From assembly GCF_000312445.1 (NCBI RefSeq), contig NZ_HE997182.1, forward strand, positions 656,841 to 720,840: a stretch of 64,000 nt of DNA. The letters run 5' to 3'. The notes under the pieces are model-generated. The model had not been told where the DNA came from. It saw nothing but the letters and a program-made list of their open reading frames with translations, and did no database searches. This stretch comes from Phocaeicola abscessus CCUG 55929. GTDB lineage: Bacteria > Bacteroidota > Bacteroidia > Bacteroidales > Bacteroidaceae. Both the position numbers and the translations under genes were made by a program. Below are positions 54,364 to 59,213 of this stretch, in pieces (position 1 is the first letter of the stretch; the number at the start of each line of letters is the position of its first letter).

Positions 54364-54594
54364 TCAACGGAACCAACTGCCTTCGACCAAATCGCTTTGC
54401 GGACATGTAATGCCGCTATTTTCTCTTTCTTTCAACACATCCGATGCAGCGATATGGATAATCTTGCCATTCGGATGCCCGTAACATAATTTACCTTCAC
54501 GGCGTGCAGTTTCTTCTATCAACTGTTGTTCCGCTATTTCCAAACCGTAGCGCAATCTGTTACTGAATTCTTGATATTCCTCTCTAGTTGACAT
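54364..54594 (-). CDS. Small protein paired with a zeta-like kinase
   Basis: A 76-residue protein starting MSTREEYQEFSNRLRYGLEIAEQQLIEETARREG, a charged helix, then a GKIIHIAASDVLKER segment and a short Cys-containing end. Its start overlaps the 3' end of the kinase gene by 11 bp, so the two are translationally coupled. I do not recognise a family. It could be the antidote or a helper of the kinase, though classical epsilon antitoxins precede their toxins and look different. Confidence 0.6.
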   Translation of the reverse strand: MSTREEYQEFSNRLRYGLEIAEQQLIEETARREGKLCYGHPNGKIIHIAASDVLKERENSGITCPQSDLVEGSWFR

Positions 54595-55159
54595 ATTTCT
54601 TTATTTGGTTAAATAAGTCCTGATCATAAATCCTAATTTCGTTTCCTTTACGGAAAGCATCGGCAACAATCACGCGAGGTGTGTTGCTATTGTCGGCAAG
54701 CATCCAATAGTCGACGCACGACATGTAAATCTTGAATAAATTATTCAATCCCGCCTTATAACGACGGCGTACAATTAAGGGCGGTATATCATGTCCGCCA
54801 TTGGATACCCGCTGTTTTACCCTTTCAATAGCAAGTTCCGGAGAGTTGAGCCAGAAATAGATCAAATTCACCGTATATCCCTTTTCTTGTGCTTGACGGA
54901 TTAAACTTAAATAGGAACGGGTAGAAAGCGTCGTCTCTACGGAGAAGCTCACTCCAGAGAGCAATAATTCATCGATGCGATGTAACATCAGACGCCCTGC
55001 TTGAATCGCTACGCTCGACGGATTGAACGGAGATAGCCCTTTGGCGATTTCATCGGCATTAACGAATTCGCGACACTCCAATATATCCGGCAGAACTGAA
55101 TAAGACGCCGTAGTCTTTCCCGCTCCATTACAACCTGCAATTATATATAGCGTAGCCAT
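54584..55159 (-). CDS. Zeta-toxin-like P-loop kinase
   Basis: A 191-residue P-loop protein of the zeta-toxin/AAA_33 group. The Walker A GCNGAGKTT lies at residues 9-17, with an NADEIAKGLSPFNPSSVAIQAGRLML segment near 34 and SFSVETTLSTRSYLSLIRQA near 72, as in chromosomal zeta-like proteins. True zeta toxins phosphorylate UDP-GlcNAc and block peptidoglycan precursor synthesis. Chromosomal homologues often have no proven toxicity. It forms a two-gene unit with the small protein downstream. Confidence 0.78.
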   Translation of the reverse strand: MATLYIIAGCNGAGKTTASYSVLPDILECREFVNADEIAKGLSPFNPSSVAIQAGRLMLHRIDELLLSGVSFSVETTLSTRSYLSLIRQAQEKGYTVNLIYFWLNSPELAIERVKQRVSNGGHDIPPLIVRRRYKAGLNNLFKIYMSCVDYWMLADNSNTPRVIVADAFRKGNEIRIYDQDLFNQIKKYVN

Positions 55160-55357
55160 CTAACTTTTTCTTCGAGAAATGTAGGCTACAAATTAAACGA
55201 TTCTTCTATTTCCATGCAAATTAGTAATGTATAAAAGTGTTAAAAACGGCACACTTTTTTCGTCTGTGTGCAAGCTTGTTCTTGCCGATACTTCATTGTC
55301 GATAAAAATAATTGGTGGAACTTTCTTTTGGTAAATGCTTTCGGAACGCCGATTCTT

Positions 55358-55924
55358 TTAAATCATCTGTAAGAAATACCGGTGTACGGAAGCATCCGTG
55401 TCCAATTCTGGATGGAAAGCCGTAACCAGCTGATTCTCCTGTCGGGCAGCCACGATATGTCCCTCGACGATCGAGAGGAGGTCGACATTCGGTCTTGCTT
55501 CACTGATGTACGGGGCTCGGATGAAGGTCATCGGGATATTCTCGCCTATGTTTTTCATTGCTGCGAAAGTATGAAAACTGCCCAGTTGCCGTCCATAAGC
55601 ATTTCGCCTGACCGTGATGTCCATGGTACCCAGTCGTCTTGCCGGTTCGTTTTCCACCTGTTTGGCCAGAAGTATCAATCCGGCGCATGTTCCGAAAGTG
55701 GGAAGCCCTTTTTGGATGGCCTCTTGAATAGGATGGAACAAATGGAGATCGTACAGTAATTTAAGCATCACGGTACTTTCTCCTCCTGGGAGGATCAATC
55801 CGTCCTTGGGCTGATGCCAATCGGCCAATCGACGTATTTCAACTACTTCCGCACCGAGTTCTCGCAACCGTTGTTCATGTTCTATAAAAGCTCCTTGCAG
55901 CGCTAATACAGCAATCTTCTTCAT
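55358..55924 (-). CDS. pdxT: PLP synthase glutaminase subunit PdxT
   Basis: Class I glutamine amidotransferase giving ammonia to PdxS for de novo vitamin B6 synthesis. The oxyanion stretch GLILPGGESTVM is near residue 42, the catalytic cysteine in FGTCAGLILLA near 79, and the His/Glu pair in TAFHPELD near 170. Length 188 is typical. It lies 14 bp behind pdxS. Its motif VAARQENQLV before the His strand is normal for the family. Confidence 0.95.
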   Translation of the reverse strand: MKKIAVLALQGAFIEHEQRLRELGAEVVEIRRLADWHQPKDGLILPGGESTVMLKLLYDLHLFHPIQEAIQKGLPTFGTCAGLILLAKQVENEPARRLGTMDITVRRNAYGRQLGSFHTFAAMKNIGENIPMTFIRAPYISEARPNVDLLSIVEGHIVAARQENQLVTAFHPELDTDASVHRYFLQMI

Positions 55925-55938
55925 AAACCAAATACTTT

Positions 55939-56814
55939 TTACTTCCCTCGTTCGGCCATGAGCAGATTGATCTCCTGTTCATTGATTCCGACCATGGCTT
56001 CGCCCAGATCTTCGGAAAGTTCGGCAAGTTTGTCTGGATCATTATAATTGGTTACTGCTTGTACGACGGCTGCCGCTCGTTTAGCCGGATTGCCGGACTT
56101 AAAGATGCCGGACCCTACGAATACGCCTTCCGCACCGAGTTGCATCATCAATGCTGCGTCGGCAGGTGTAGCGACCCCGCCTGCGGCGAAATTGACTACT
56201 GGCAATTTGCCATAGTTATGCACATAGCGCACCAACTCGTAAGGAGCTTGCAATTGTTTGGCAGCTTCGTAGAGTTCGTTTTCGTTCAAGGACGTGAGGC
56301 GATGGATTTCGCTTTGGATCAGTCGCATGTGACGAACTGCCTGGATGATATCGCCCGTTCCCGGTTCACCTTTCGTGCGGATCATCGTGGCTCCTTCGGC
56401 AATTCGTCGAAGTGCTTCGCCTAAATTTTTAGCGCCGCAAACAAAAGGCACGTCGAATTTGGTCTTATCGATGTGATAAATATCATCGGCCGGTGATAAG
56501 ACTTCGCTTTCATCAATGTAATCGATTTGGATGGCTTGCAGTATCTGCGCTTCGGCAAAATGTCCGATACGACATTTGGCCATCACGGGGATAGAAACAG
56601 CTTGCTGGATGCTTTTGATCATTCTCGGGTCGCTCATTCTGGACACGCCGCCCGCCGCCCGAATATCCGCTGGTATACGTTCCAGAGCCATTACTGCACA
56701 AGCCCCGGCATCCTGGGCGATCTTCGCCTGTTCCGGTGTAGTTACGTCCATGATCACTCCGCCTTTCAGCATCTGAGCCAAATTACGGTTCAATGTTTGT
56801 CTGTCTTCTTTCAT
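55939..56814 (-). CDS. pdxS: PLP synthase lyase subunit PdxS
   Basis: A 291-residue barrel enzyme building PLP from ribose 5-phosphate, glyceraldehyde 3-phosphate and ammonia. Diagnostic segments are [35 protein letters not shown], the lysine in [18 protein letters not shown] (residue about 80) and [30 protein letters not shown]. It lies 78 bp behind the ThiD-AraC gene on the same strand, so the three probably belong to one B6 group. Confidence 0.96.
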
Positions 56815-56892
56815 AATCGTTTTTTTAGGGCAAAAGCGCTTATCTTCATACTCGAAAAGTTTTAAATCGGATGCTGTCTTTTGCTTTTGGAA

Positions 56893-57981
56893 TTATACAT
56901 TATTTCTATATTCACTCGGTGTTACGTTTTTTAATTTCTTGAAGAACTTCGTAAAATGGGCTTGCGAACGGAAGCCCAAGTCGTAAGAGATCTCCTGCAC
57001 TGTCTTATTGCTGCCGCTCAACATCGCTTCCGCCTGTTTCAACAAGTACTCGTCGATCAGTATTTTCGGCGTCTTTCCCGCCAAGCGTTTGGCTACCTGC
57101 GCCAAGTAACGGGTGGTAACATTCAACCGATCGGCATAATAACGGACGTCATTGCTGCTTTGATAATGCGAAGCGATCAAGCCGATGAATTCGTTATACA
57201 GTTCGCTTCCTCTGCCTTCTAAACGGCCGGAAAAGGTTGTTTGCTGACGGATATAACTTTTCGCGTTTTCGATTGCTTCGGGGATAGAGAGCTTCTGACT
57301 CAGATAGGTAGCGATGGCCGAAGAAAGCGTACCTCCTATGCCATGGACATTTTCCGCAGCGGCGGGCGAGAAGAGGTATCTTGGCTTCTGTTCCCCGGCG
57401 ATCAATAAGAGATCCGTCGTCATCTCCGCCGAAGTCATTCCTTCTTGCAGCAATACGGCTTTGCTTCCTCGGTGCAGCAATTCGGCGGCGGCGGATGTCA
57501 TCTCGTCGATGGTTTCTATTTTCCTGTTCAGAAAATACGAAGCCGCTTGACGGCTAATCACCACCAAGGTACAGTGCTTCAAGAAATGCGATTGGATACG
57601 TTCGATCACGTCGGTCGACATGAGCAATTCGTTACGGCTCGAAACGACGATCGGATCATAAACCACGCACGGAGGTCTATATTTGGTTAAGGCGAGCGTG
57701 ATTGCATCCACCACCTCGACGCTTCGAGCCATTCCTATCTTCACGGCCGCGGGTTGAATGTCGTCGATGATCGCCTCGATTTGCCCAGCGACAATCGCGG
57801 AGGGCAGGTCGAAGAAATCCTGAATGCCCAACGTATTCTGTACGGTGATGGAAGTGATAGCGGAAACCGCATACCCTCCCAACGCCGTAATGATCTTGAT
57901 ATCCGCTTGAATGCCCGATTCTCCCGTGCTATCCGAACCGGTAACGGTAAGGACCGGAAGCGGTTTATTTTTCGTCTCCAT
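56893..57981 (-). CDS. ThiD/PdxK-like domain fused to an AraC DNA-binding domain
   Basis: A 362-residue two-domain protein. Residues 10-260 are a ThiD-type ribokinase fold (TVTGSDSTGESGIQADIKI, AVKIGMA, VVYDPIVVSS). Residues 265-362 are an AraC helix-turn-helix pair (VRYYADRLNVTTRYLAQVAKR, then VQEISYDLGFRSQAHFTKFFKK). The anion-hole motif, GTGC in ThiD and GTGD in PdxK, reads GIGG (214-217), so the catalytic residue is glycine. It may therefore bind a pyrimidine or B6 vitamer as a sensor and control pdxS/pdxT directly downstream; this is inference. The start is the ATG at 57981; the frame extends further upstream without family sequence. Confidence 0.85.
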   Translation of the reverse strand: METKNKPLPVLTVTGSDSTGESGIQADIKIITALGGYAVSAITSITVQNTLGIQDFFDLPSAIVAGQIEAIIDDIQPAAVKIGMARSVEVVDAITLALTKYRPPCVVYDPIVVSSRNELLMSTDVIERIQSHFLKHCTLVVISRQAASYFLNRKIETIDEMTSAAAELLHRGSKAVLLQEGMTSAEMTTDLLLIAGEQKPRYLFSPAAAENVHGIGGTLSSAIATYLSQKLSIPEAIENAKSYIRQQTTFSGRLEGRGSELYNEFIGLIASHYQSSNDVRYYADRLNVTTRYLAQVAKRLAGKTPKILIDEYLLKQAEAMLSGSNKTVQEISYDLGFRSQAHFTKFFKKLKNVTPSEYRNNV

Positions 57982-58170
57982 CGATCTGTTCCATTGCGGA
58001 GACAAAGGAAGTTGAAAAAAAGGAAATAAAAAAACGAAGTTCTGGTTTTGACAAATAATATACCTAAAAATATAAAGAAACGGTCGGCACATGTCTTTTA
58101 CTCGTTTGGATACGTCCCCTAATGTAGCTGGATACGTCCCGAATCCCGCCGGCGAGGTTGTTTATCCCGT

Positions 58171-58194
58171 CGGATAGGTTATATAACCTATCCG
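58171..58194. repeat. Perfect 24-bp palindrome
   Basis: CGGATAGGTTAT followed directly by its reverse complement ATAACCTATCCG. The half-site GGTTAT and flanking GGATACGTCC words recur in the neighbouring 43-bp units. It could be a strong cruciform or a dimeric protein operator. Confidence 0.85.
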
Positions 58195-58233
58195 GATACG
58201 TCCGGAACGTCAAATTTGAGGTTGTCTAACCTC

Positions 58234-58430
58234 AACGGACAGGTTATCCAACGTATCCGGCGAGGTTCGGAACGTCAACGGACAGGTTATCCAACGTATT
58301 CGGCGGGATCCGGGACGTCAACGGACAGGTTATCCAACGTATTCGGCGGGATCCGGGACGTCAACGGACAGGTTATCCAACGTATCCGGCGGGATCCGGG
58401 ACGTCAACGGACAGGTCACTAACCTCAATG
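58234..58430 (+). repeat. 43-bp tandem repeat array, four copies plus a partial fifth
   Basis: Copies start at 58234, 58277, 58320, 58363 and 58406 (partial), period exactly 43 bp. Each begins AACGGACAGGTTATCCAACG and contains GGGATCCGGGACGTC near its end; the first copy differs most. There are no unique spacers, and 43 is not a multiple of three, so it is neither CRISPR nor a coding repeat. Degenerate related words reach left to about 58105. Confidence 0.9.
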
Positions 58431-58517
58431 AGGGGATAGAAGACGTAGCCTGATCTGTAAAAATCCATCTTATGCGCAAATCTTTCAAAAGTCTGCGCTA
58501 TCCTAAAAATATATTTG

Positions 58518-58525
58518 TATCTTTG
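58518..58525 (+). promoter_or_regulatory. -7 box for the PAP2 gene; decides its start
   Basis: TATCTTTG fits TAnnTTTG and overlaps the upstream end of the open frame (58515), so the start is the ATG at 58548. Confidence 0.55.
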
Positions 58526-58547
58526 CGCGCTCATCAATATAGAGGCT

Positions 58548-59213
58548 ATGATAGAATATCTGCAGCATATGGATTCCGATCTGTTATTATGGTTAAACGG
58601 TTTCCACAACTCTTTTTTCGATTCGCTGATGTGGCTTATTTCTTATAAATACGTATGGATTCCGATGTACGCGGTGTTGCTGTATGTGTTATTCAAGAAG
58701 TACGGCATTCACGTGGTGTTGTTTGTGTTGATAGCTATGTTTCTGCTGAATTTCGCCGTTTCCGATTATGTCTGCGGAAGCGTATTGCGCCATGCGGTGA
58801 TGAGACCTCGTCCGACCAACGTCGAGAGTCCGATTTGGCAGCTTGTTCATACGGTGAATGATTATCGCGGAGGCCATTACGGCTTTCCTTCGTGTCATGC
58901 TGCCAATTCTTTTTCCCTGGCCACGCTGATGTCGCTGCAATTGCGAAAAATTCGGATTATCATCTTCATTTTTACCTGGGCGATCTTCCATTCCTACAGT
59001 CGCATTTACTTAGGCGTTCATTATCCCGGGGATATCGTTGCGGGGGCATTGATAGGCGTATTGATCGCTTTTGCGATTTACTATGCATTCAACTATGTGG
59101 CGCATATAAAATACGATCGGTCGACCGACTATATCAATATGATCCCCTATGCTGGATTGTCTACATTAGCGACTCTCATTCTGTTCACATATATTAAGAG
59201 GCAATGGTTTTAG
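58548..59213 (+). CDS. PAP2-family membrane phosphatase
   Basis: A 221-residue membrane protein with about six hydrophobic segments. The three PAP2 motifs are present: LRHAVMRPRPTN near residue 88, FPSCHAANSFS near 113 (PSCH where the consensus is PSGH) and SRIYLGVHYPGD near 155. Such enzymes dephosphorylate undecaprenyl pyrophosphate, phosphatidylglycerophosphate or lipid A in the periplasm. The substrate is not decidable by eye. The catalytic His of the second motif is kept. Confidence 0.9.
   Translation: MIEYLQHMDSDLLLWLNGFHNSFFDSLMWLISYKYVWIPMYAVLLYVLFKKYGIHVVLFVLIAMFLLNFAVSDYVCGSVLRHAVMRPRPTNVESPIWQLVHTVNDYRGGHYGFPSCHAANSFSLATLMSLQLRKIRIIIFIFTWAIFHSYSRIYLGVHYPGDIVAGALIGVLIAFAIYYAFNYVAHIKYDRSTDYINMIPYAGLSTLATLILFTYIKRQWF

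Follow-up and report, generated by a model that had tools for sequence, protein, structure and literature searches.

Phocaeicola abscessus CCUG 55929 encodes a protein that joins a ThiD-like kinase domain to an AraC-type DNA-binding domain, and its gene is followed by pdxS and pdxT, which code for the two subunits of PLP synthase. We consider this protein, with a probability of about 0.8, to be a pseudokinase-derived, one-component regulator of vitamin B6 synthesis that probably activates its own pdxST operon; we infer its ligand, its sign and its binding to DNA from sequence and genomic context. Under the proposed mechanism, a ThiD-type domain would have lost its catalytic Cys, its NxxE motif and its ATP-side motifs and would have acquired an AraC DNA-binding domain by fusion. 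The sensor would be this ThiD-family vitamin kinase domain, with its substrate-side half kept and its chemistry lost, and the fusion protein would bind next to the -33 region, on its upstream side or in contact with it, at its target promoters, i.e., that of its own gene (in an operon with pdxST), that of pdxS, or a shared divergent region. With the vitamer pocket empty the activator would be on, and with PLP or pyridoxal bound it would be off.

The window, by which we mean the whole stretch of 64,000 nucleotides that was analysed, belongs to an assembly of 2.54 Mb in 14 contigs that is 85% complete. The genes, domains and protein motifs on which the argument draws are as follows.

55358..55924, minus strand: pdxT, PLP synthase glutaminase subunit (213.4 bits to TIGR03800, cut-off passed)
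55939..56814, minus strand: pdxS, PLP synthase lyase subunit (512.5 bits to NF003215, cut-off passed)
56893..57981, minus strand: gene of the putative ThiD-like pseudokinase/AraC fusion, 362 aa
56902..57138, minus strand: AraC-type DNA-binding domain HTH_18, residues 282-360 (Pfam, 75.6 bits, cut-off 33.6)
57241..57933, minus strand: ThiD-like Phos_pyr_kin domain, residues 17-247 (Pfam, 194.2 bits, cut-off 27)
57331..57342, minus strand: degenerate anion hole GIGG, residues 214-217, with Gly217 at the Cys position of ThiD
57544..57555, minus strand: lost NxxE motif, here SRQA, residues 143-146 (intact in 0 of 43 fusions)
57901..57939, minus strand: retained substrate-side loop GSDSTGESGIQAD, residues 15-27 (from residue conservation in 43 fusions)

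The preliminary description of this DNA had given the open frame of the fusion gene as 56893-57981 on the minus strand, which is correct, and had placed pdxS and pdxT downstream on the fusion's own strand, which is borne out by the NCBIfam scores of the two genes. The gaps are 78 bp between the fusion gene and pdxS and 14 bp between pdxS and pdxT. The ORF caller also offers a longer frame for the fusion, reaching 58092, and we take the ATG at 57981 to be the better start because the longer version would span the predicted operator and -7 box that are described below. A gene for a Zeta-toxin-family kinase (PF06414, 45.7 bits) comes after pdxT, some 200 bp further downstream and likewise on the minus strand (54584-55159).

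A ThiD-like fold with an altered active site

The Pfam scores of the two domains (194.2 and 75.6 bits) support the earlier assignment of a ribokinase-type ThiD fold joined to an AraC helix-turn-helix, and a further model, HTH_AraC, is also above its cut-off in this protein (39.9 bits). Neither a GntR-type HTH nor an aminotransferase domain was detected in the Pfam scan at E 0.001, a domain make-up that agrees with the view, already put forward, that the architecture is unlike that of MocR/PdxR. TIGR00097, the ThiD model, gives the window protein 194.6 bits, which is below the curated cut-off of 204.95, and gives 118.1, 171.7 and 137.0 bits to the fusions L069, L224 and L219, respectively. In the AlphaFold2 model of the window protein (mean pLDDT 91.6, pTM 0.77) the kinase fold is a confident prediction, and the placement of the kinase-like and AraC domains relative to each other is not certain. 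The top structural matches of the model are ThiD-type kinases (8g1h, Z 36.0; 1jxi, Z 33.3); also among its matches is 4ywr (Z 29.9), a ThiD-type protein of A. baumannii whose entry title reads in part 'in non-covalent complex with pyridoxal ph...'. A shortened relative, the L069 protein, gave an AlphaFold2 model with pLDDT 89.1 and pTM 0.66, the best Foldseek match of which is 4jjp (E 1.4e-13).

We have gathered 43 fusion proteins of this kind, including that of the window, which together form a family of the Bacteroidales whose carriers include bacteria of the gut and the rumen. They were drawn from 151 genomes of the same taxonomic family, from GTDB representatives and from a 393-genome sample of the order; first-look candidates were scored per genome, up to 14 for the family and up to 5 for the order and the phylum, and a fusion could thereby be missed. 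The scan of GTDB representatives confirmed at least 586 relatives, the best 80 of which consist of 11 fusions and 69 unfused proteins. L065 and L223 are probably one locus counted twice among the 43, because their contigs are equally long and their upstream DNA is identical, and some of the others are close relatives. Xylanibacter ruminicola D31d (L069) is one of the named carriers, as are MAGs of Prevotella, Bacteroidaceae, Candidatus Liminaster and Candidatus Colimorpha. When spread beyond the Bacteroidales was sought among 395 genomes of the phylum, with up to 5 first-look candidates scored per genome, only the window's own genome passed E 1e-75. Plasmid records yielded 34 matches, none across more than 80% of the query, and among the five listed three are annotated as thiD and two are without annotation. 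In a tree of the kinase part (a quick search, with a midpoint root for drawing and with the domain excised by a simple rule, so that some rows are uneven), one branch with an SH-aLRT of 99 parts 39 fusions from 33 unfused ThiD proteins.

At the nearly invariant positions of ThiD, the substrate-side half is largely kept in the fusions and the ATP/catalytic side is mostly lost. As had been noted from the window protein, which reads HGIGG, the Cys/Asp of the anion hole is gone, and neither residue is found there in any of the 43 fusions. Position 217 is occupied by Asn in 28, by Gly in 14 and by Ser in one, as compared to Cys in 31 of 31 unfused ThiD proteins (multiple alignment) and in all of 93 unfused-kinase loci (pairwise alignment). 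Gly217, whose conservation the preliminary description had wanted to see checked, is thus not conserved across the fusions, Asn being the commoner residue; fusions with an intact GTGC were also looked for, and none occurs among the rows examined. The N and E of NxxE are each present in 31 of 31 unfused ThiD proteins in the multiple alignment, the Lys of KGGH is missing in 43 of 43 fusions, and of the 58 residues of segment 151-208 at most 13 are kept in 26 of the 43 and at most half in 29.

On the substrate side, G15, S16, D17, G23 and D27 of the loop are conserved in all 43 fusions, Q25 and A26 in 42 and G20 in 41, and T43, Q48, Q67, K81, G83, H213 and G214 are likewise kept in all 43. The kept residues presumably include the HMP contacts of Salmonella ThiD (Gln44, Val42, Met80). 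Some substrate-side positions have changed relative to ThiD: A14 is replaced by T or N and V53 by I in 43 of 43, A22 by S in 33, and D109 is kept in 18. Because the substrate-side positions stay while the ATP and catalytic ones go, we read these sequences as pointing to a selection that holds the ligand pocket of the fusions and discards the chemistry, and the proteins are predicted to be without kinase activity.

It is very unlikely that the fusion still works as an HMP-P or pyridoxal kinase in addition to being a regulator, with an unusual active site and perhaps supplying this activity to its own genome. The window member does keep the full-length fold and H213-G214, and its gene is the only PF08543 gene detected in the 85% complete assembly. 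Against such a kinase, the Cys/Asp at 217, NxxE and the Lys of KGGH are each lost in all 43 fusions, most of segment 151-208 is lost in 26, and 18 of the 21 other fusion-bearing genomes of the family hold, besides the fusion, an unfused kinase-like match that covers most of the domain (of the remaining three, G049 has a broken kinase piece, and G122 and G136 have none among the matches listed). A search for ThiC in the window's genome, at 85% completeness, did not find it, so that there may be no HMP route for a kinase to serve. Searches of the same genome for other ribokinase-fold vitamin kinases gave one match to PF01256 and five to PF00294. Viewed in its own right, a genome of 85% completeness in which neither ThiC nor a further PF08543 gene is seen suggests a possible thiamine auxotrophy and the lack of a ThiD/PdxK-type kinase.

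Linkage to pdxST and the probable ligand

The fusion gene adjoins pdxST in 38 of the 43 cases, 32 of them in the same orientation and 6 in a divergent one; the idea that pdxS and pdxT are always its neighbours is sound for these 38, and such neighbours were not seen in the other five. Among the 151 genomes of the family, pdxS is present in 26 and the fusion in 22, and these 22 have both, there being no genome with a fusion and without pdxS. PdxJ, which represents the alternative route, is found in 115 of the 151 and in none of the 26 with pdxS; PdxS and PdxJ never coincide, and 10 genomes have neither. PdxJ was searched for in the window's genome and not found (85% complete). In the sample of the order, pdxS is above cut-off in 19 genomes and the fusion occurs in 10 (11 copies), with an overlap of 8. 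No fusion was found in 4 of the 26 pdxS genomes of the family (G013 and G140, of the window's genus, G025 and G051) or in 11 of the 19 in the order sample, and the pathway therefore does not require the regulator. A fusion was sought around 14 fusion-free pdxS genes and none was seen (flanks of 1.5 kb for 10 of them), and pdxS was seen near none of 93 unfused-kinase loci (flanks of up to 1.5 kb for 24 and up to 5 kb for 69, some loci being in both sets).

In a PdxS tree that took in 13 of the 14 fusion-free loci (L215 was left out), the 34 fusion-linked rows form one group (support 95) with a single fusion-free member inside it, L210 (longer stretch L251), a locus at which the regulator may have been lost. 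Two more distant pdxST loci from the window's genus, L229 and L230, with PdxS about 80% identical, have neither the fusion nor a comparable site; there is a PEP carboxykinase gene in the vicinity.

Two of the five fusions not seen at pdxST adjoin nadB (L219:4167-5165 and L220:4019-4966, in genomes G449 and G511). PdxS was not found in either genome (94% and 98% complete), and the regulator was perhaps kept or re-targeted there following the loss of pdxST. The other three make up one branch of the fusions, in which the anion-hole motif is HGxCN. L225 (4273-5187) is a second copy in G168 that lies off pdxST and has a beta-galactosidase-like gene and an integrase-like fragment as neighbours; at L063 (4986-5912) pdxST is absent from the 10.9-kb stretch, and the fusion precedes a TonB-dependent receptor gene by about 1.4 kb; at L066 (4986-5930) a contig end cuts the locus.

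That the fusion protein regulates pdxST, by way of a predicted binding to DNA, appears very probable to us. We regard it as probable, with somewhat less confidence, that its ligand is a B6 vitamer, and PLP or pyridoxal is the most likely one. Feedback by PLP is the simplest signal because PdxST makes PLP directly, and the genomic context favours a pyridoxal- or PLP-type ligand over HMP. A pdxST regulator that answers to something other than B6, such as HMP, another pyrimidine or a central metabolite, or that has no ligand, is unlikely. It would fit with the retention of residues from ThiD, an enzyme that acts on HMP(-P), and the replacement of A14 by T/N and of A22 by S (33 of 43) could signal any new specificity; the fact that 38 of 43 fusions adjoin pdxST, the ThiC not found in the window's genome (85% complete) and the pyridoxal compound with which ThiD-type 4ywr was solved, according to its partial title, all argue against it.

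A predicted operator next to the -33 region

Two further features of the window come into play here.

58032..58055, minus strand: predicted operator TTTGTCAAAACCAGAACTTCGTTT, 24 bp (motif search with shuffled controls)
58002..58010, minus strand: predicted -7 box TTCCTTTGT (consensus TAnnTTTG)

A conserved element is visible by eye in the DNA upstream of the fusions. When 30 de-replicated pdxST-linked loci were subjected to a motif search without a prior model, a 24-bp motif emerged, reading about TTTGTCAAAATGGGAACTTTATTT on the gene strand, with a log-likelihood of 248.6 versus 94.3-113.9 for 15 first-order Markov controls run with an equal number of seeds. Its best score is 9.1-21.7 in 29 of the 30 loci and 2.8 in L064, and the site of L061 is weak. 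Upstream of 13 fusion-free pdxS genes (L215 left out) there is no comparable site, all scores being 6.5 or lower. For the fusions not seen at pdxST, the motif scores 16.0 and 16.1 at L219/L220 and 14.4 at L066, and no operator-like site was found upstream of L225 and L063 (5.2 and -0.4). A matrix from 19 other loci gives the window site 17.8, a score reached by 0 of 100 shuffles; it is no clean hold-out, since the motif run from which its 19 sites were taken was a joint one in which the test loci took part. On the 10 long-form loci, which belong to the other group, the same matrix is matched by at most 3 of 100 shuffles in six and fails in four, and in two of the 10 another site scores best. 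The preliminary description had drawn attention to the DNA upstream of 56814; the binding site that we predict, at 58032-58055, precedes the regulator gene itself and is not merely upstream of 56814. In several relatives there is a second, inverted arm, e.g., AAATGATGTT...AACATCATTT in L034; the left arm of this inverted repeat is not visible in the window's site.

The promoter consensus given in PMC7366714 consists of a -7 box, TAnnTTTG, with TTTG near -33. In 36 of 38 loci the end of a -7-like box falls 30-33 nt beyond the motif (40 nt in L061, no box in L064), as scored with a regular expression written after inspection of the sequences and with near copies among the 38, and because of this spacing the operator-like motif would end at about the -33 region.

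The loci show three arrangements, i.e., all genes on the same strand with the site upstream of the fusion, all on the same strand with the site in the gap between the fusion and pdxS, and divergent genes, and in each of them the site stays in front of the genes. In five loci (L041, L042, L048, L061 and L075) the gap between the fusion and pdxS holds the best site. This constancy, together with the 13 fusion-free pdxS genes that have no comparable site, makes it highly improbable that the AraC gene is only a hitchhiker with pdxST in a mobile cassette, with no regulatory link, a reading to which the patchy occurrence of pdxS, present in 26 of the family's 151 genomes, and the integrase-like fragment next to L225 would lend themselves.

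Within the window's own genome, the sole perfect match to the site pattern is the window site. A wider regulon was considered and set aside: the pattern has 18 matches at up to two mismatches versus 17 for a control pattern, and there is thus no evidence for further targets in this genome. Control by a riboswitch or an attenuator in the intergenic DNA was likewise discarded: no Rfam match reaches the gathering score in 55200-58600, and the 78-nt gap hardly folds better than its shuffled versions (z -0.76, with 42 of 200 equally good). The stretch from the fusion promoter to a divergent PAP2-type gene at 58515 contains tandem arrays, one at 58232-58416 with a 43-nt unit (4.3 copies, 95% matches) and a looser 65-nt array that overlaps it, both within 58171-58416.

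Since the predicted site adjoins the -33 element, we interpret the fusion protein as an activator and not a repressor. The more particular scheme, in which the protein is active with an empty pocket and inactive with PLP or pyridoxal bound, has in our estimation a somewhat better than even chance. The opposite sign, i.e., a repressor of pdxST, or of itself alone, with the vitamer as co-repressor, is rather unlikely. A site that touches the -33 region could also block polymerase, and the strong site upstream of the fusion at L219 and L220, where pdxS was not found, indicates that autoregulation may exist in its own right; on the other hand, the site is positioned immediately before the -33 region, where AraC-type activators usually bind, and leaves the -7 box uncovered. 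The apo forms of the PdxR regulators of other bacteria, which have another fold, activate pdxST, with PLP as the anti-activator, according to PMC5320631, and this also speaks against repression.

Relation to known systems and a possible origin

In comparison with ThiD/HMP-P kinase (TIGR00097, PF08543), the fusion shares the fold (Z 29.9-36.0), and D27, Q48 and K81 are kept in the fusions, but it is below the TIGR00097 cut-off, has no catalytic Cys, NxxE or KGGH Lys, carries an added AraC domain and sits at pdxST. With the AraC/XylS activators it has in common a C-terminal HTH_18 and a predicted site beside an upstream promoter element; the effector domain of that group is usually a cupin, among others, whereas that of the fusion is a vitamin-kinase relative. 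Enzyme-derived one-component regulators as such are already known, in that NrtR (Nudix), BirA and archaeal ThiR (ThiN domain) combine a biosynthetic or salvage enzyme domain with an HTH as a sensor of a vitamin or cofactor. The fusion differs from these in its enzyme and vitamin, and one fusion lineage appears to have shed the ATP-side part. PdxR (MocR type, GntR wHTH plus aminotransferase-like domain) is also a regulator beside pdxST that reuses a PLP-handling enzyme fold, and is unlike the fusion in its DNA-binding family and its enzyme ancestor; its sites lie, as given in PMC5320631, in the region shared with pdxST.

In the open-access full-text literature we found neither a description of a ThiD-derived pseudokinase on an AraC domain that controls pdxST nor a regulator of PdxST in Bacteroidales. 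The term 'arac' is absent from the main text of PMC5320631, PMC6593275, PMC9997740 and PMC6522883; PMC9997740 leaves regulators out, by its own statement, and PMC5320631 covers MocR types. If the proposed regulator is real, the regulator of Bacteroidales PdxST would have been named together with its site and its probable signal, the family would offer a testable series from a full-length pseudokinase to a half-kinase sensor, and a genetically encoded B6 sensor might be derived from it. Because the fusions match the models for HMP-P kinase and for the AraC family, predictions of thiamine and B6 pathways in which they are taken for ThiD or PdxK would then be wrong, including for the window's own genome.

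We lean moderately toward a stepwise origin, in which the catalytic residue would have been lost first and, later and in one lineage, the ATP-side segment would have been removed, leaving a half-kinase receptor for PLP or pyridoxal that drives pdxST through the AraC domain. On this view an enzyme-derived B6 regulator would have arisen a second time, independently of MocR/PdxR, and those Bacteroidales that have PdxST and not PdxJ would carry a regulator-plus-pathway cassette. The full-length window protein branches beside 28 others, in the group to which the shortened forms belong, and because the support values are 85 and 91, this branching order is likely, though not certain.
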